37,852 nucleotides of DNA from Synechococcales cyanobacterium PMM_0072 (lineage in GTDB: Bacteria > Cyanobacteriota > Cyanobacteriia > Cyanobacteriales > Chamaesiphonaceae). The notes beneath the pieces were generated by a model that saw only the letters and a program-made list of their open reading frames with translations, did no database searches and was not told the origin of the DNA. The stretch is from positions 1 through 37,852 of the forward strand of contig CASBPY010000177.1 of NCBI GenBank assembly GCA_949127675.1, written 5' to 3'. The translations under genes were made by a program, and so were the position numbers. This document shows positions 11,650-37,802 of the stretch, in pieces. Positions within the stretch are counted from its first letter, which is position 1; every line of letters begins with the position of its first letter.

Positions 11650-11892
11650 GGATTGCAGAAAATCCGGTGATGCTCTTGAGTAACACGGCTAGCGGAATCC
11701 CAAAAATTAGACTTAGATGCAGACTGCTCATGTATTCATCCAAACGATTAAAAGATTGAGCGACTTGAATATAACCCTTAATTAGATCCAATTAACGTCA
11801 AATATTAACTTAACTCAACCCATTTCATCTTAATTTCATCTGATCCCGCTAAGATCGTAGTAATGTAAAAATTAATATTATTTTTGTAAGCT

Positions 11893-14405: not shown

Positions 14406-15431
14406 TTATTTAGCAGACTTCTTGGGAAACTTGGGCAGGTCGATTTTCATTGGTTTAATAGCAGTGAGATCGCGGTTGAGGGTTGGGGCTGGCCAATTTG
14501 TGTTCGGCTCATTGATCGTGGTACTTTCTTTGTCGGGTATTTCGGCTGACTGGGGGGTAAGAGTGGGGATTGGATCCAGCTTTTGACGATAAAGGTTGTC
14601 CGAATTACCCGCAAATTCTTCACGCCAGTTGGCTGGAGAGATGATCGGTTTTGTGGGATCTGTTGGGGCGGATGGAGTCCAACGAGCAATCTCTTCCTGC
14701 GCTAGCTGGAGCGGCGATCTTGGGGGTGCTGGATCGATGTTCGAGCTAAATGTGGTGGATGTCGCAAGCGGATCTAGTACGGGCAATTCAGCAGGGATAG
14801 GTGGAGTGGGACTCTGGACATCGATAGTTTCAGTTGTGGCGATCGAGGTCGATGTTGAGGTATTGTCGTTGGCAGAGCCTCTCCCCTGGAGAATCGATAG
14901 GTTGTTTAAGATTTCTGCGATGGATGGATCTATTGCCGTAGCTGAATTAGTAGTCTGAGCTTGGAGTTGACGATGGAGTTCGATTACGACTTGTTCGGTT
15001 TGGTGCAGTTTTTGGGATTGCTGCTGATATTTTTGGGTGAGTTCGTCGTGTTCGGACTCTAGTTGAGGGACAATGGTTTGAACAATTTCGAGTTGTTGAG
15101 ATAGGGTTTCGACTAATGTTTGTTGGCGTTGCCCGATTTGATGGGAGGTTTCTAATTGTTGAAACATTCCAGCCAGTCTGTCGTGGGCGATTCTGAGATC
15201 GTCTTGGTGCTGGAGAATCGTGATTTCGTGGCTCTGGTTTTGCTCTTTGTGGCTATGTAGAGACTGTTTGGTGGAGGCTAAAGCTTGTTCCAATCTGGCA
15301 ATTTCTTCGACAAGTTGACGGTTGATCTGGCGCAGGTTGCTAACTGCTGTCAACCAGTCGGTGCGATCTGGTTCGGATTCTACCGTAGTGTAGACGGTTT
15401 CGAGTGCGTCGAGGTCGTTTGTTGGGTTCAT
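14406..15431 (-). CDS. Hypothetical coiled-coil protein, 341 residues
   Basis: The function is not recognised. Residues about 25-170 are predicted coiled coil by eye (heptad-rich QLVEEIARLEQALASTKQSL and LETSHQIGQRQQTLVETLSQ). A Ser/Thr/Pro-rich disordered linker follows, then a basic tail (PLQLAQEEIARWTP, and finally KIDLPKFPKKSAK). No signal peptide or membrane segment is present. It follows csaB on the same strand with a spacer of about 100 bases that holds degenerate short repeats, so cotranscription is possible. It is likely a lineage-specific structural or scaffold protein, with no stronger inference available. Confidence 0.8.
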   Translation of the reverse strand: MNPTNDLDALETVYTTVESEPDRTDWLTAVSNLRQINRQLVEEIARLEQALASTKQSLHSHKEQNQSHEITILQHQDDLRIAHDRLAGMFQQLETSHQIGQRQQTLVETLSQQLEIVQTIVPQLESEHDELTQKYQQQSQKLHQTEQVVIELHRQLQAQTTNSATAIDPSIAEILNNLSILQGRGSANDNTSTSTSIATTETIDVQSPTPPIPAELPVLDPLATSTTFSSNIDPAPPRSPLQLAQEEIARWTPSAPTDPTKPIISPANWREEFAGNSDNLYRQKLDPIPTLTPQSAEIPDKESTTINEPNTNWPAPTLNRDLTAIKPMKIDLPKFPKKSAK

Positions 15432-15521
15432 GAGTACAGGTTCGGGTTCGGGGTGAATGAGTGAGTGGGTGAATTGAAGATTGTGTGACTGGAAGACTGG
15501 GTGACTGAGAGGTGTCCAAAT

Positions 15522-15556
15522 CTCCGAACTCCCAACTCCTAACTCCCAACTCCCAA
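15522..15556 (-). repeat. Five-unit heptamer tract through the csaB stop codon
   Basis: On the plus strand the units are CTCCGAA, CTCCCAA, CTCCTAA, CTCCCAA and CTCCCAA, in perfect 7-base register. Read on the csaB strand they are TTGGGAG-type units that encode the last residues LGVGS and supply the TAG stop (15539-15541). A degenerate partner tract (GTGAATGAGTGAGTGGGTGA) lies at about 15453-15472. Confidence 0.85.
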
Positions 15557-16594
15557 AGCCTGAACCAACAACTCGCGATGAGCGAGAGACTTTTGGCTCA
15601 GAGACGAGATCGATTGTTTTGACAAAGCCGTCCCTGTGACTAGATGCTGTTGCCAGGACTGAGCAATTTCACTGGGATCTGCGGGAATATTGGTGAGTTC
15701 CCAGCCAGGGATATTAATTTCTGTCATTAGTTTACTGACTTTTGGGTCATAGCCGATCGCCCAACATTTACAGCCTTGGGCTGCTGCCATGATGAGACTG
15801 TGATAGCGCATCCCGATCGCCATGTCCACCCCTTGAAACAAACCGTTAAGTTGTTTGGGGTCTGTGAGGGTGACGACTTGACTATTTTCGGTGAGTTCGG
15901 ACTGGATTTGCTCGGCGATATCTAGATCGGTGGTGGGTTGGAAGGGGACGAGTAAAATATGACTCCCAGTGGCTGCTTGGAGTTCTACTAGAGCTTGGGT
16001 AATCGTATCCAAGCGTTGATTTGTCAATTGGGGGTGCGATCGCAAGGTGACAGCGATTTTTGGGCTGGGGATGTTGGCGATTTCGGGGACGGGGGTAGCG
16101 GACATGCTCCAGACGGGATCTGGTGCCATGACGCAGGTAAGCCCCCAGGATTCGACTAGGGCAGCGGAGGCTGAATCTCTGACACTAAGGGCGGTGCAGC
16201 TACTAAAGGCGCGTTGAGCAATCCAGCGGGTAAGGGGCTTGTCTAGAGGACCAATTCCTTGGGCGATGGCGATGGTTTGGAGTCCAAACTGCCGAGCTAG
16301 TCCGATTAGTCCGCCATAATAGATCGAGTTGCGGATACTAGTAGCATCCTGAATTAGACTCCCACCACCCAAGATCAAGAATTGGGATTCTTTGAGGGCG
16401 CGCACCACCGAACCGCTATTCATTCGATCGTAACTCTTGACTCCATAGTTCTTGGAAGTAGCACGAGGATTGGCGGACAACACTAGGGGTTTTACATGGG
16501 GTGGTAGCATCTCCAACATCGATACCAGCAAGGCTTCATCGCCACCGTTACCCTTGCCATAATAGCCACATAGTACAGCCTGGATTTCTGTCAT
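15539..16594 (-). CDS. csaB: CsaB-like polysaccharide pyruvyl transferase
   Basis: The protein of about 351 residues matches the polysaccharide pyruvyl transferase family: VLCGYYGKGNGGDEALL at the N-terminus, LILGGGSLIQDATSIRN, TIAIAQGIGPL, SVRDSASAALVESWG, and GMRYHSLIMAAAQGCKCWAIGYDPK near the C-terminus. CsaB adds a ketal pyruvate to cell-wall polysaccharide, which in other bacteria anchors SLH-domain proteins and S-layers. The frame also allows a GTG start at 16606, but the ATG at 16592-16594 is preferred. The C-terminus LGVGS and stop lie in a heptamer tract. It is divergent from the binding-protein gene at 16704. Confidence 0.9.
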   Translation of the reverse strand: MTEIQAVLCGYYGKGNGGDEALLVSMLEMLPPHVKPLVLSANPRATSKNYGVKSYDRMNSGSVVRALKESQFLILGGGSLIQDATSIRNSIYYGGLIGLARQFGLQTIAIAQGIGPLDKPLTRWIAQRAFSSCTALSVRDSASAALVESWGLTCVMAPDPVWSMSATPVPEIANIPSPKIAVTLRSHPQLTNQRLDTITQALVELQAATGSHILLVPFQPTTDLDIAEQIQSELTENSQVVTLTDPKQLNGLFQGVDMAIGMRYHSLIMAAAQGCKCWAIGYDPKVSKLMTEINIPGWELTNIPADPSEIAQSWQQHLVTGTALSKQSISSLSQKSLAHRELLVQALGVGS

Positions 16595-16703
16595 TCGATC
16601 GAACACCCGATTGATAGCTTATGAGATATTCTACATTAGTAGCTCGTGCGATCTCAATTGAGTTACCATGCTGTTTAATGTGTGAGCAGTGCAATTTTCA
16701 ATT

Positions 16704-20965: not shown

Positions 20966-21015
20966 TATGTAGCAGAGATCTACCCACCCCGCCCTACGGG
21001 CACCCCCCTCTTGTC

Positions 21016-21083
21016 GGTTTTTTTATTCGGAGGGAACCTCCGAATAAAACCGCCGCTCCAAGGAGGGGATCTTATCCCCTCCT
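21016..21083. repeat. Two stacked palindromes, one possibly nested in another
   Basis: The first is TTTTATTCGGAGG (21021-21033)/CCTCCGAATAAAA (21037-21049) with loop GAA, and its CGG/CCG flanks extend it with a bulge. The second, AGGAGGGGAT (21061-21070)/ATCCCCTCCT (21074-21083), follows immediately. The context (CCCTACGGGCACCCCC before, AAGGAGGGGA after) resembles a common cyanobacterial intergenic palindrome that appears split by the inner element. The T-run near 21018-21024 precedes the first stem, so termination from desC is not obvious. Confidence 0.65.
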
Positions 21084-23896: not shown

Positions 23897-24724
23897 ATGA
23901 AATTTCGCGGATTAGTTGCTGCTCTACTTGCCATCTGTATTGGCTTGTTGACAGCTTGTAGTGATGCTCCCGTATCGGCAACAACGGTAATGACTTACGA
24001 GGACATTAGAGGCACTGGGCTGGCAAATAATTGTCCAGTTATTGACGATACTAGTCGGGGTTCCATTCCGCTAGATGCAGCCAAGAGCTACCAATTGGTA
24101 GATATGTGCATCCAACCTACCAATTATTTTGTCAAAGAAGAACCTCAAAACAAACGTCAGGAAGCTGAGTTTGTCGCAGGTAAAGTGGTCACACGGGCGA
24201 CTTCCAGCCTCGACCAGATCAGAGGCTCTGTTACCCTCTCAGCAGATCGGACCCTAACTTTTAAAGAAGAAGATGGACTTGATTTCCAAGCCGTCACCGT
24301 CAAAATGCCTGGTGGTGAATTGGTACCATTCCTGTTTACGATCAAAGAACTAGTTGCTACCAGCCAACCTGGGGTCGAAAGCATCACTACTTCTACTGAC
24401 TTTGCGGGTGAATACAAAGTCCCATCCTACCGTGGTAACGTCTTCCTCGATCCTAAAGGTCGTGGTGTTGCCAGTGGCTATGTCGATGCTAATGCGCTCC
24501 AAGCAGAAGCAGTAAATCGCCAAGGAAATCGCAAGAACACCAAACGCGCTCAAACTGGTAAAGGTAAAATCAACTTTGAAGTTGCTAAAGTTAACAGTGC
24601 AACTGGCGAAATCGCTGGTATTTTTGAAAGCGAACAACCTTCTGATACAGATTTAGGTGCTCTAGATCCCAAAGAAGTCAAAATTCGCGGTTTATTCTAC
24701 GCTCGGTTAGAAGCTAAATCTTAA
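23897..24724 (+). CDS. psbO: Photosystem II manganese-stabilizing protein PsbO
   Basis: PsbO is the 33-kDa extrinsic subunit on the lumenal side of photosystem II that stabilises the Mn4CaO5 cluster. The 275-residue precursor has a signal peptide with the lipobox-like LLTAC (C21), as in some other cyanobacterial PsbO. The mature protein starts near TYEDIRGTGLANNCP. The disulfide pair C46 and C71 is present, as are KRQEAEFV, TSITTSTDF-like TSTDFAGEYKVPSYRG, and IAGIFESEQPSDTDLGA near the end. GAGG at 23887-23890 is a good Shine-Dalgarno sequence for the ATG at 23897; the in-frame TTG at 23885 is rejected. Confidence 0.97.
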   Translation: MKFRGLVAALLAICIGLLTACSDAPVSATTVMTYEDIRGTGLANNCPVIDDTSRGSIPLDAAKSYQLVDMCIQPTNYFVKEEPQNKRQEAEFVAGKVVTRATSSLDQIRGSVTLSADRTLTFKEEDGLDFQAVTVKMPGGELVPFLFTIKELVATSQPGVESITTSTDFAGEYKVPSYRGNVFLDPKGRGVASGYVDANALQAEAVNRQGNRKNTKRAQTGKGKINFEVAKVNSATGEIAGIFESEQPSDTDLGALDPKEVKIRGLFYARLEAKS

Positions 24725-24728
24725 TTTG

Positions 24729-24763
24729 GTGAATAGTGGATAGTGAATAGTGAATAGTGAATT
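24729..24763 (+). repeat. Five-unit heptamer tract after psbO
   Basis: GTGAATA, GTGGATA, GTGAATA, GTGAATA and GTGAATT run in exact 7-base register, starting 4 bases after the psbO stop codon. It is complementary to the tract at 24870-24893. Confidence 0.9.
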
Positions 24764-24795
24764 AAGCGATCAAATGTAAATATCATCCTCAAAGG

Positions 24796-24819
24796 TGCCG
24801 GATCTTCAGTGATCTGGCA
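24796..24819 (+). terminator. psbO terminator
   Basis: TGCCGGATC and GATCTGGCA form a 9-bp stem (one G-T pair) with a 6-base loop, followed by TCTTTTCTTTTT. It lies between the two complementary heptamer tracts of this spacer. Confidence 0.85.
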
Positions 24820-24827
24820 TCTTTTCT

Positions 24828-24845: not shown

Positions 24846-24869
24846 GTCCACCAACCACCATCCACCAAA

Positions 24870-24893
24870 CACTATCCACTATCCACAATTCAC
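24870..24893. repeat. C-rich heptamer tract before argG, inverted partner of 24729-24763
   Basis: CACTATC, CACTATC, CACAATT and CAC run in 7-base register. A looser CCACCAAC-type run begins at 24848. It is the reverse complement of the G-rich tract after psbO, matching 16 of 17 bases over the core. It lies 36 bases before the argG ATG. Confidence 0.85.
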
Positions 24894-24928: not shown

Positions 24929-26131
24929 ATGGGTCGCGCTAAAAAAGTTGTACTTGCTTACTCTGGTGGAGTAGATACCTCCGTCTGTATTCCTTACCTC
25001 AAGCAGGAATGGGGTGTGGAAGAAGTAATTACCCTCGCCGCAGATTTGGGACAAGGGGATGAATTGGAACCAATTCGGATCAAAGCTCTCAATTCTGGTG
25101 CGAGTGTCTCGCTGGTTGCTAAAGCTACAGAGAGTTTTATTACCGATTATGCCTTCCCCGCGCTCAAGGCGAATGCACTGTATGAAAATCGTTATCCGCT
25201 GTCTACAGCATTAGCCCGTCCGTTGATTGCCAAATTGCTCGTCGAAGCGGCTGAGGAGTACGGCGCGGATGCCGTAGCCCACGGTTGTACTGGCAAGGGT
25301 AACGATCAAGTCAGATTTGATGTCTCGATCGCTGCTCTCAATCCTAACCTCAAAGTGCTAGCACCAGCACGGGAATGGGGGATGAGCCGCGAACAAACGA
25401 TCGCTTATGGTGAGAAATGCGGTATTCCTTCACCTGTGAAAAAGTCATCTCCTTACAGTGTGGACTTAAACTTACTCGGACGTAGCGTCGAAGCGGGACC
25501 CCTCGAAGATCCTTGGGTAGAGCCGCTCGAAGAAGTCTATGCACTGACTAAAGCGATCGAGAATACTCCCGATACGCCAGAATATATTGAGATTGGCTTT
25601 ACTTGCGGTTCACCAACTAGCATCAATGGGATTGCCCTAGATCCAGTCAGTTTGATTAGTCGCTTGAATCAAATCGTCGGCAATCATGGGATTGGGCGAA
25701 TTGATATGGTCGAAAACCGTCTCGTCGGGATTAAATCTCGCGAGATCTATGAAGTTCCCGCCTTATCTGTCCTGATTCAAGCTCACCGTGAGCTAGAAAG
25801 CCTCACCCTCACAGGCGATGTCACCCAATACAAGCGCGGCATCGAAGAAACCTATAGCAAACTCGTTTACAACGGTCTGTGGTATTCGCCGCTCAAGACA
25901 GCCTTGGATGCCTTTGTTGAGCAAACCCAAGCGCGAGTCACTGGCAATATCCGGATCAAGCTATTTAAGGGCAATGCGGTGATCGTCGGGCGGCAGTCAG
26001 AGTACAGTCTGTACGATATGGACTTGGCTACCTATGGTGAGGATGATCAATTTGACCACAAGGCTGCGGAAGGCTTTATCTATGTTTGGGGTCTGCCTAC
26101 GCGGGTCTGGTCGCAACGGAATCGGGGATAG
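24929..26131 (+). CDS. argG: Argininosuccinate synthase
   Basis: ArgG joins citrulline and aspartate at the cost of ATP, the penultimate step of arginine synthesis. The 400-residue cytosolic protein has the N-type ATP pyrophosphatase P-loop SGGVDTS (12-18) and the substrate-binding [13 protein letters not shown] and [13 protein letters not shown]. The C-terminal tetramer-forming region includes [14 protein letters not shown] and [20 protein letters not shown]. The length and motifs are standard. The gene is flanked by stop-linked heptamer tracts; its own stop (TAG at 26129-26131) lies in GGGGATAGGG. Other arg genes are not nearby, as is usual in cyanobacteria. Confidence 0.98.
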
Positions 26132-26138
26132 GGAACCA

Positions 26139-26166
26139 GTGAACAGTGAATAGTGAATAGTGGATA
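26139..26166 (+). repeat. Four-unit heptamer tract after argG
   Basis: GTGAACA, GTGAATA, GTGAATA and GTGGATA start 7 bases after the argG stop. The convergent partner is GATTCAC x3 at 26202-26222. Confidence 0.9.
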
Positions 26167-26201
26167 GTTAATTAGGGTTTAGGACCGGATCCCTTCTTAG
26201 C

Positions 26202-26222
26202 GATTCACGATTCACGATTCAC
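26202..26222 (-). repeat. Three-unit heptamer tract through the DUF2358 stop codon
   Basis: GATTCAC occurs three times in a row on the plus strand (GTGAATC on the gene's strand). It encodes the C-terminal VNRES and supplies the TGA stop at 26205-26207. It is the inverted counterpart of the argG tract. Confidence 0.9.
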
Positions 26223-26597
26223 CAATTTAAAGTGTTGTTTCAATACATCTAATGGAGCACAATCCCAATAGTCAACGTGACTGATAATTAATTCTAAATC
26301 GTTTAATAGCATTTCACTTCTCCCAGTAATTTCAATTCGTGGATACCAAGGTAGCGGAGTATTCCAGCTCAAAGACCAGCGGGTGGTAATTAGTTGTTCG
26401 ACTCGATCGATGTCGTATAATTCCAACTGTGGATCTTTAAACCAAGTCTGAATAAATGCGATCGTTTTTTTGTAGCGGTTAAGTCCCCGAAACTTGCTCA
26501 ATGGATCTTGGAAGTATACATCTTCGGCGTAGATTTGATAGTTTTGATCGATCGGGAATTTAGCGTAATCCGATCGCAGAATTGTAATAATATCCAC
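26205..26597 (-). CDS. DUF2358 family protein
   Basis: This 130-residue protein matches the DUF2358 family found in cyanobacteria and chloroplast lineages, which adopts an NTF2-like fold. The features are LRSDYAKFPIDQNYQIYAED, VYFQDPLSKFRGLNRYKK, an aromatic core (TRWSLSWNTPLPWYP) and the end HVDYWDCAPLDVLKQHFK. No catalytic function is known for the family. It is convergent with argG. Its last five residues are encoded by GTGAATC heptamers, so the C-terminus may have been altered by tract growth. The next minus-strand gene (26651-27289) lies 53 bases upstream and may be cotranscribed with it. Confidence 0.8.
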   Translation of the reverse strand: MDIITILRSDYAKFPIDQNYQIYAEDVYFQDPLSKFRGLNRYKKTIAFIQTWFKDPQLELYDIDRVEQLITTRWSLSWNTPLPWYPRIEITGRSEMLLNDLELIISHVDYWDCAPLDVLKQHFKLVNRES

Positions 26598-35732: not shown

Positions 35733-36131
35733 TTATGCTTCAGGTTCAATCGAGTTGTTGATGTCTTCTAATCGCTCAACCCGACTGCGTAAACGAGTTG
35801 ATACACGTTCCTGATTGGCGAGATCGTAATTAAGATTATTAATCATCGATCTTTGATTACGGATTGAGTCCCGAATCCCGATTCGGGTCGTTACTTCCAG
35901 ACTATCTACACGTTCGCTCAAAACAGCAATATCTGTGCGAATGTCACTCACAGTTCGCTGTACGAGAGCTAAATCCTGTTTAGTCGCCATATTTTGTTGG
36001 ATGTCTACTATGTTTTGCTGCATGGTTGACATATTTTGCTGTATGGTTGACATATTTTGCTGCATGGTTGCCATACCTTGAATAACTTGTCCTAACTGAT
36101 TTTCAAGCCGATCGAAACGTTCTTCTGACAT
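35733..36131 (-). CDS. Hypothetical coiled-coil protein with 7-residue repeats, 132 residues
   Basis: The function is not recognised. The protein has no signal or membrane segment and is almost all helix. Residues about 16-50 contain a 7-residue repeat MQQNMST, IQQNMST, MQQNIVD, IQQNMAT encoded by 21-base DNA units. VQRTVSDIRTDIAVLSERVD, NLNYDLANQERVSTRLRSRV and RLEDINNSIEPEA follow. It would form a trimeric or parallel coiled coil. Similar short coiled-coil proteins with MxxRFDRLE starts are common in cyanobacteria. The start is the ATG at 36129-36131. A deleted second copy is at 34464-34515. Confidence 0.75.
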   Translation of the reverse strand: MSEERFDRLENQLGQVIQGMATMQQNMSTIQQNMSTMQQNIVDIQQNMATKQDLALVQRTVSDIRTDIAVLSERVDSLEVTTRIGIRDSIRNQRSMINNLNYDLANQERVSTRLRSRVERLEDINNSIEPEA

Positions 36132-36275: not shown

Positions 36276-37775
36276 ATGACCTTTAGTACAGAATTTGAAT
36301 TACTATTACGGGCGAGATCGCCACTAATCTATATTCCCACTAGCGAAGAAGAACGGGTCGAAGGATCGATCGCTAGAGTTGCCCAGCAGCAAGGAAATCG
36401 TCCGATTTACATCTGGGATTTTGTAGATGGTTATCAGGGCAATCCCAACGATCTGGGCTATGGGAAACGTAATCCACTCCAAGCTCTAGAATTTGTCGAT
36501 AAACTCAGCCCTGATGTGTCGGGGATCTTTATCCTGCGGGATTATCACCGCTTCCTTGAAGATGTATCTGTTGCGCGAAAACTCAGGAACTTAGCTCGCA
36601 AACTCAAATCTGAACCCAAAAATATCGTCATTCTCTCCCCCCAGATTACTATCCCCAGCGATCTGAGTGAAGCGATCGTCCTACTCGAATTTCCATTGCC
36701 AACAGCTACCGAAATCAAAGTCGAGATCGATCGATTGCTCAATGCTACCGTCAATCATCTCAGTCATCAACAATTAGATGACTTGGTTCGTGCTTGTCAG
36801 GGTTTATCACTGGACAGAATTCGGCGGGTATTAGCTCGTGCGATCGCCACCCACGGCGAAATTCGTCCCGATGATGTAGAATTGGTACTTGCCGAAAAGC
36901 GTCAAACTATCCGCCAAACCCAAATCCTCGATTTCTATCCTGCCAAGGAACAGATCACTGATATCGGTGGTTTGGATAACCTCAAAGACTGGTTGCTGCG
37001 CCGTGGTGGTTCCTTTTCCGATCGCGCTCGCCAATATGGTCTGCCTTATCCCAGAGGGCTGCTCCTGGTCGGAATTCAGGGCACTGGTAAATCGCTCACG
37101 GCTAAAGCAATCTCCCATCACTGGTATTTACCCCTATTACGCTTGGATGTCGGACGTTTGTTTGGTGGATTGGTAGGTGAATCGGAGTCTCGCACCAGAC
37201 AGATGATTCAACTAGCCGAAGCTCTTTCTCCTTGCGTGTTATGGATTGATGAAATCGATAAAGCCTTTGCTGGAATCGATGGCAAGGGAGATGCAGGCAC
37301 ATCGAGTCGGGTATTTGGGACATTTATCACCTGGCTAACCGAAAAAACTTCCCCTGTTTTTGTGGTTGCAACTGCGAATAATATTGATTCACTTCCGGCT
37401 GAAATGCTGCGTAAGGGCAGATTCGACGAGATTTTCTTTGTCGGTTTACCCACCAGAGCGGAACGCGGCGCAATTTTCAACGTCCATCTGACTAAACTTC
37501 GTCCTCATAACCTTGCGAACTATGATATCGATCGATTAGCCTATGAAACCAACGATTTTTCAGGCGCAGAAATCGAGCAAACCTTAATTGAAGCAATGCA
37601 CATTGGCTTTAGCCAGAACCGTGATTTCACTACTGATGATATTCTAGAATCAGCAACTCAAATGATTCCCCTCGCAGTCACCGCCCAATCCCAAATTCAA
37701 TTCCTCCAGGACTGGGCAAATTCTGGCAAGGCAAGATTAGCTTCGAGACAAGTTAATTTAGGGAATAGGGAATAG
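36276..37775 (+). CDS. ycf46: AAA ATPase Ycf46
   Basis: The 499-residue protein matches the cyanobacterial and plastid Ycf46 family. The N-terminal half (residues 1-220) is a divergent ATPase-like domain (LLLRARSPLIYIPTSEEERV, WDFVDGYQ, FILRDYHRFLED). The second half is a canonical AAA module: Walker A GIQGTGKS (266-273), Walker B VLWIDEID (321-328), sensor 1 ATANN (365-369) and arginine fingers in RKGRFDE (379-385). Ycf46 is reported to influence inorganic carbon use in cyanobacteria. Its last residues NLGNRE and TAG stop are encoded by GGGAATA heptamers, so the true C-terminus may be shaped by repeat growth. Confidence 0.92.
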   Translation: MTFSTEFELLLRARSPLIYIPTSEEERVEGSIARVAQQQGNRPIYIWDFVDGYQGNPNDLGYGKRNPLQALEFVDKLSPDVSGIFILRDYHRFLEDVSVARKLRNLARKLKSEPKNIVILSPQITIPSDLSEAIVLLEFPLPTATEIKVEIDRLLNATVNHLSHQQLDDLVRACQGLSLDRIRRVLARAIATHGEIRPDDVELVLAEKRQTIRQTQILDFYPAKEQITDIGGLDNLKDWLLRRGGSFSDRARQYGLPYPRGLLLVGIQGTGKSLTAKAISHHWYLPLLRLDVGRLFGGLVGESESRTRQMIQLAEALSPCVLWIDEIDKAFAGIDGKGDAGTSSRVFGTFITWLTEKTSPVFVVATANNIDSLPAEMLRKGRFDEIFFVGLPTRAERGAIFNVHLTKLRPHNLANYDIDRLAYETNDFSGAEIEQTLIEAMHIGFSQNRDFTTDDILESATQMIPLAVTAQSQIQFLQDWANSGKARLASRQVNLGNRE

Positions 37776-37781
37776 GGGATA
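37761..37781 (+). repeat. Three-unit heptamer tract through the ycf46 stop codon
   Basis: GGGAATA, GGGAATA and GGGGATA in 7-base register encode the last residues of Ycf46 and contain its TAG stop (37773-37775). Confidence 0.9.
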
Positions 37782-37788
37782 GTGTTTT

Positions 37789-37802
37789 GGACGCAAGCGT
37801 CC
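37789..37802 (+). terminator. ycf46 terminator hairpin
   Basis: GGACGC and GCGTCC form a 6-bp stem with loop AA, followed by TTTTCTCTG. It is framed by the G-rich tract before and the C-rich tract after. Confidence 0.8.

Follow-up and report, generated by a model that had tools for sequence, protein, structure and literature searches.

Do proteins whose last residues are read from a tandem heptanucleotide repeat vary in their C-termini through gain and loss of repeat units, as the initial annotation of this locus proposed, or are such ends incidental to the repeats of the neighboring spacers? The window analyzed here, the whole stretch of 37.9 kb, was chosen because three genes with stop-overlapping arrays fall in it. 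The csaB gene, encoding a polysaccharide pyruvyl transferase (15,539-16,606, minus strand; TIGR03609, 368.7 bits), runs into a five-copy array of TTGGGAG with one TTAGGAG variant (15,522-15,556, minus strand), and its end, Q-A-L-G-V-G-S-TAG, is read on the minus strand through TTGGGAG TTGGGAG TTAGGAG. This tail lies outside the family profile, since the TIGR03609 match spans only residues 9-308 of 355. The second gene (36,276-37,775, plus strand) encodes a ycf46-like AAA ATPase, which we take to be Ycf46, the profile matches reaching only AAA PF00004 and the AAA lid; it ends N-L-G-N-R-E-TAG in TAGGGAA units of a G-rich left arm (37,759-37,782, plus strand). The third is a DUF2358 gene (26,205-26,597, minus strand; PF10184) that ends V-N-R-E-S-TGA in GTGAATC units (26,201-26,222, minus strand), one arm of the argG-DUF2358 spacer. 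All three arrays were found by period-7 array detection. The sequence confirms that the last residues and stop codons of CsaB (LGVGS/TAG), Ycf46 (NLGNRE/TAG) and DUF2358 (VNRES/TGA) are heptamer-encoded, and the further statement that the stop comes from the repeat is correct for all three, with an amendment for CsaB: the common unit TTGGGAG contains no stop codon in any reading frame, and the stop is supplied by the single variant unit TTAGGAG. Six period-7 arrays with a score of at least 13 occur in the window and none with a period of 5, 6, 8, 9 or 10, whereas chance gave a mean of 0.01 and a maximum of 1 period-7 array in 100 order-1 simulations.

The window genome and its relatives are all placed in Chamaesiphon, a freshwater cyanobacterium; among the relatives compared are CAN_BIN19 (G008), 341R_metabat_111 (G005), 336R_metabinner_41 (G003) and C. 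polymorphus CCALA 037 (G002). G006, a closed chromosome of 6,284,095 bases, is presumably C. minutus PCC 6605. Array statistics were sampled from 1.2 Mb of G006 and 423 kb of G000, with 271 kb of the sister genus (G009), and open reading frames of at least 100 amino acids were taken by the longest-ORF rule, which makes start sites uncertain. The closest species pair is G000 and G008, with approximately 92-97% nucleotide identity and argG 95.3% identical in DNA; between G000 and G006 argG is approximately 81% identical. Contigs C57 of G003 (L164) and C394 of G001 (L165), from bins of different species, are identical over 6,000 bases, and G003 carries two ycf46 copies, so that these bins are likely cross-contaminated. 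This identical stretch is the only same-strain pair found, and the C-terminus comparisons are between species, a level at which rapid switching inside one species could go unseen. The window also holds two spacer repeats of approximately 100 bases (20,972-21,073 and 11,679-11,777) that have many matches across Chamaesiphon genomes at 79-100% identity, and three in-frame 21-base repeats (36,013-36,075) within a 132-amino acid ORF (35,733-36,131), which at a guess is likely a coiled-coil protein.

The prediction that the C-termini vary holds between species. CsaB was readable in seven of the nine genus genomes (G007 has a fragment only and G004 no match), and all seven species differ after a shared core, although the tail INNIN of G006 is a prefix of the INNINGKSE of G002. 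Six of six species differ in Ycf46, with tails VNLGNRE, VNLGDRD, GKD, SPIGARD, VSG and GSLGKVVEGRD; G008 and G002, which have paralogues only, and G004, in which the gene is split, were left out. DUF2358, absent from the comparison in G007, has seven different tails among eight species, KISG being common to G002 and G006. The array is absent at the stop in csaB of G006 and G001 and in DUF2358 of G003, and in the sister genus (G009 and G010) the orthologs of all three genes stop near the same residue without an array. The end of the protein core does not shift among the relatives; the variation that follows the local heptamer is confined to a tail of 1-11 residues.

What differs between species at the compared gene ends is the sequence of the units or the presence of the array, not the number of units. 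Between G000 and G008 all three comparable C-termini differ, none of them through unit number: the heptamers that close CsaB and DUF2358 are not the same in the two species, and a short ORF on contig L208 (5489-5800) ends in heptamers in one species but not in the other. Ycf46 of G000 and G003 differs by substitutions inside the units, with the stop position unchanged. When one or two units were added in silico, the C-termini of Ycf46 and DUF2358 remained as they were; removal of one unit changed the Ycf46 end from NLGNRE to NLGNRG and made DUF2358 10 residues longer. Addition altered only CsaB, one gene of the three, where a further TTGGGAG before the variant stop fuses the protein in frame to the downstream ORF (735 amino acids; 14,406-16,606), a state seen in none of the species compared. 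The ribosome enters the array at a fixed upstream edge, and unit number is therefore irrelevant to the first in-frame stop in arrays whose unit contains a stop triplet. Slippage itself does occur, because G000 and G008 have unequal numbers of units in one alignable array elsewhere (spacer at L208:2070 and L244:1001). The proposed alignment of orthologs thus gave the expected differences in residues but not in heptamer number, and the claim that gain or loss of a unit shifts the frame and moves the stop was not upheld.

The same heptamer units recur genome-wide. At a score of at least 12 the 1.2-Mb sample of G006 contains 133 period-7 arrays and the 423-kb sample of G000 contains 73, other periods from 4 to 12 giving 0-27 arrays each in these samples, and there are no period-7 arrays in the 271 kb of the sister genus G009. 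As an exact 20-mer, the TAGGGGA repeat is found in nine of nine Chamaesiphon genomes versus one of 51 others among the 60 genomes counted. Most arrays of G000 are intergenic (65 of 86), 15 contain a stop and six lie inside ORFs. Overlap with stops is at the level of random placement within spacers (19 observed versus 20.8 in G006; 11 versus 11.9 in G000), overlap with starts is depleted (3 versus 17.1; 2 versus 11.2), and arrays within 10 nt of stops are enriched (47 versus 28.4, p 0.001, in G006; 25 versus 16.7, p 0.006, in G000). An array lies near the stop in 119 of 1287 ORFs and contains the stop in 31, and in 13 (approximately 1%) at least 4 nt of array extend upstream of the stop; three of the 13 are the genes of the window. 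Heptamer-encoded C-termini are genuine, but they are the uncommon extreme of a graded series. Array starts are most frequent on the stop codon, with 14 of 119 at offset 0, where the stop is always TAG. Turnover is not rapid at every locus, since G000 and G006 share the array type in the L186 and L134 spacers. One spacer (L134:3274 and L186:4478) has kept both of its arrays, whose units do not match each other, between G006 and G000, and some arrays are therefore old.

On the strand read outward from the nearer gene, G-rich arrays make up 111 of 135 cases in G006 and 48 of 61 in G000; within 30 nt of a stop the outward-G orientation is found in 60 of 61 arrays of G006, whichever the gene direction, and it is found in all 31 arrays that hold a stop. 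Within 30 nt of starts the G-rich strand is antisense in 26 of 28 tandem and four of four divergent cases. A stop triplet is present in 57-76% of outward units, depending on class, versus 24-41% of inward units and 31% of all heptamers. Neutrality alone does not explain this polarity. General intergenic skew was rejected as its cause, array-free spacers showing little skew. Orientation by replication strand was suggested by early TTTAGGC matches in G006, nearly all on the plus strand, but was dropped because sampled arrays show no clear replichore bias and AGGGGAT is mixed in strand.

Since arrays are mostly G-rich outward from both neighboring genes, a spacer carries inverted arms on its two sides, and left and right arms occur together in 21 spacers versus 5.4 expected. 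Downstream of ycf46, a terminator-like hairpin, GGACGCAAGCGTCC followed by TTTT (37,789-37,802, plus strand), stands between the left arm and a C-rich right arm that is truncated by the contig end (37,826-37,852, minus strand), and a similar hairpin is present at the same place in G003, G005 and G001. The partner of the DUF2358 arm is an AGTGAAT array (26,137-26,168, plus strand) after the argG stop at 26,131. In the psbO-argG spacer, a GTGAATA array (24,733-24,762, plus strand) after the psbO stop at 24,724 faces an inverted right arm (24,847-24,886, minus strand) across a terminator-like hairpin whose coordinates come from the RNA fold (24,791-24,824, plus strand). Both arms of the psbO-argG and argG-DUF2358 spacers switch unit type together between species, psbO-argG with at least five unit-type changes across eight species by a parsimony count on the argG tree and with arms mostly agreeing. 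A first permutation test of arm agreement in G006 gave p 0.047-0.094 (n 17). An improved test gave p 0.0022 (n 91), with the direct-orientation control also at p 0.025, and in G000 p 0.0014 (n 42), with the control at 0.61; G005, G003 and G001 gave p 0.09, 0.13 and 0.03 with n of 5-6 each, and G008 had too few cases. Agreement across species at four loci, which were picked after the pattern was seen, gave p 0.00005 and 0.0001 and was carried by argG-DUF2358 and psbO-argG, the csaB and ycf46 spacers showing no agreement on their own. A hold-out over nine other orthologous spacers, some of them shortened by short predicted ORFs, found agreement in five (p 0.28). Arm agreement is consequently kept as a tendency, and as a universal rule it was rejected.

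The three C-terminal tails likely arise as a by-product of the heptamer arrays, of the STRR kind and fast-changing, that occupy Chamaesiphon spacers. Arrays would lengthen, shorten and change type through replication slippage and template switching between inverted arms, and selection would keep them out of start codons and the conserved protein core. Most outward units would hold a stop triplet and, 7 and 3 sharing no factor, any reading frame should then meet a stop in about six codons or fewer, so that invasion of a stop codon would be nearly harmless and unit number would hardly matter. That unit gain and loss should instead vary the C-termini reversibly, as a mild phase-variation device, is very improbable. 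The variation between species, the dependence of the CsaB stop on one variant unit with fusion to the next ORF upon addition of a unit, and the one array with differing unit number speak for such a device. Added units are without effect in two of three genes, none of the three differences between G000 and G008 arises through unit number, stop overlap is at the random level, and arrays equally occupy spacers, such as that after psbO, where the stop is not part of the array. Random stop overlap and a conserved core that ends before the tail likewise argue against the proposal of a reversible, mild variation of protein ends. At phase-variable simple-repeat loci unit number sets the frame or the stop, in contrast to the arrays here, where additions change one gene of three.

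It is possible, if doubtful, that arrays are selected as 3' RNA hairpin arms that stabilize terminators, or as G-quadruplex elements, with the tails incidental. The inverted arms fit this explanation, as does the greater density of arrays in convergent (0.83 per kb) and tandem (0.72) than in divergent spacers (0.36), and in G006 a match with the spacer's own arm is seen in tandem (p 0.016) and convergent (p 0.015) but not in divergent spacers (p 0.64, n 11). The left and right arms of the ycf46 spacer pair in the RNA fold (z -3.17), and the argG-DUF2358 and psbO-argG spacers fold with z -2.59 and -6.96. However, the psbO value is owed mostly to terminators, the fold of the csaB 3' end is no more stable than those of shuffled sequences (z 0.08), arms are mismatched at many loci, and the outward-G polarity is present in divergent spacers too. 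No G-quadruplex is expected from the DUF2358 unit because GTGAATC, unlike the CsaB and Ycf46 units, has no run of three G. We regard it as unlikely that the arrays are hairpin arms rewritten in concert, each copied from the other by template switching while terminator and genes stay fixed. New heptamer types would then gain their foothold at an existing TAG stop acting as a 3-nt microhomology, so that arrays would start on the stop codon and C-termini would be overwritten. Template switching is known to create and repair hairpin stems in RNA genes (PMC8794818) and would make both inverted arms change together, although the accessible part of that paper describes it for RNA genes and not for tandem heptamer arms. 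It is quite improbable that arm-bearing spacers arose when a mobile, dispersed hairpin element inserted and its arms later expanded. The hairpin ACGC(AA/TT)GCGT does recur in spacers, with eight copies in 1.2 Mb of G006, three in 423 kb of G000 and none in 271 kb of G009 (sites include the window hairpin at 37,789-37,802 and L107:5615, L124:5767, L135:672, L141:10448, L143:6384, L158:11083, L201:5758 and L220:16713); nine of the 11 have a scored array to one side or both, and the genome-wide recurrence of units would agree with dispersal. Against this, most array spacers lack the hairpin, and relatives retain the central hairpin of psbO-argG as its arms change.

Returning to the by-product explanation, the STRR heptanucleotide repeats of Calothrix and Nostoc, which Mazel and others reportedly described in 1990, are said to be tandem and dispersed. 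The Chamaesiphon arrays are likewise tandem 7-nt units, dispersed and mostly intergenic; the likeness lies in organization. Known from the accessible parts of two papers are stop-overlapping heptamers with outward-G polarity in Xanthomonas and Nostoc, and stop-overlapping ones in Beggiatoaceae. The TAACTGA direct repeats of Beggiatoaceae and cyanobacteria are intergenic and mostly upstream of start codons, with some overlapping stops; they hold stops in all three frames, and their insertions succeed at protein ends (MacGregor 2015, PMC4679880). They resemble the Chamaesiphon arrays as intergenic heptamers overlapping stop codons but consist of one unit, and the accessible text describes no inverted-arm rule and no comparison of tails across species (PMC4679880). 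In the GGGNATC and GGGGA(C/T)T heptamers of Xanthomonas and Nostoc, the G-rich strand is sense within 50 bp of stops and antisense upstream of starts, and arrays are rare between divergent genes (Rehm 2015, PMC4692102). These also overlap stop codons, with inverted pairs in Xanthomonas and few in Nostoc (PMC4692102). Tested in Chamaesiphon, this sense-after-stop and antisense-before-start polarity was found to be shared. As far as that paper could be consulted, the Xanthomonas and Nostoc repeats form one unit family per genome and are discussed as G-quadruplexes (PMC4692102). The quadruplex-capable unit typical of those G-rich heptamers is not general in Chamaesiphon, as the DUF2358 unit illustrates, and Chamaesiphon has many unit types, which is why arm-to-arm agreement can be seen. 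Among the open-licence papers searched, in the parts available, nothing on repeat-encoded C-termini was found beyond PMC4679880 and PMC4692102, and arm-to-arm agreement, a TAG-anchored edge and a species comparison of tails were not found.

A tandem array with a stop triplet in its unit gives the same C-terminus whatever the number of units, and a period of 7 does not by itself indicate phase variation at the ends of genes. Beyond the by-product verdict on the C-termini, the remaining interest lies in the polarity and the coordinated arms, and Chamaesiphon, a genus with many units, offers a place to test the polarity of bacterial heptamer repeats, which has long been known but not explained.
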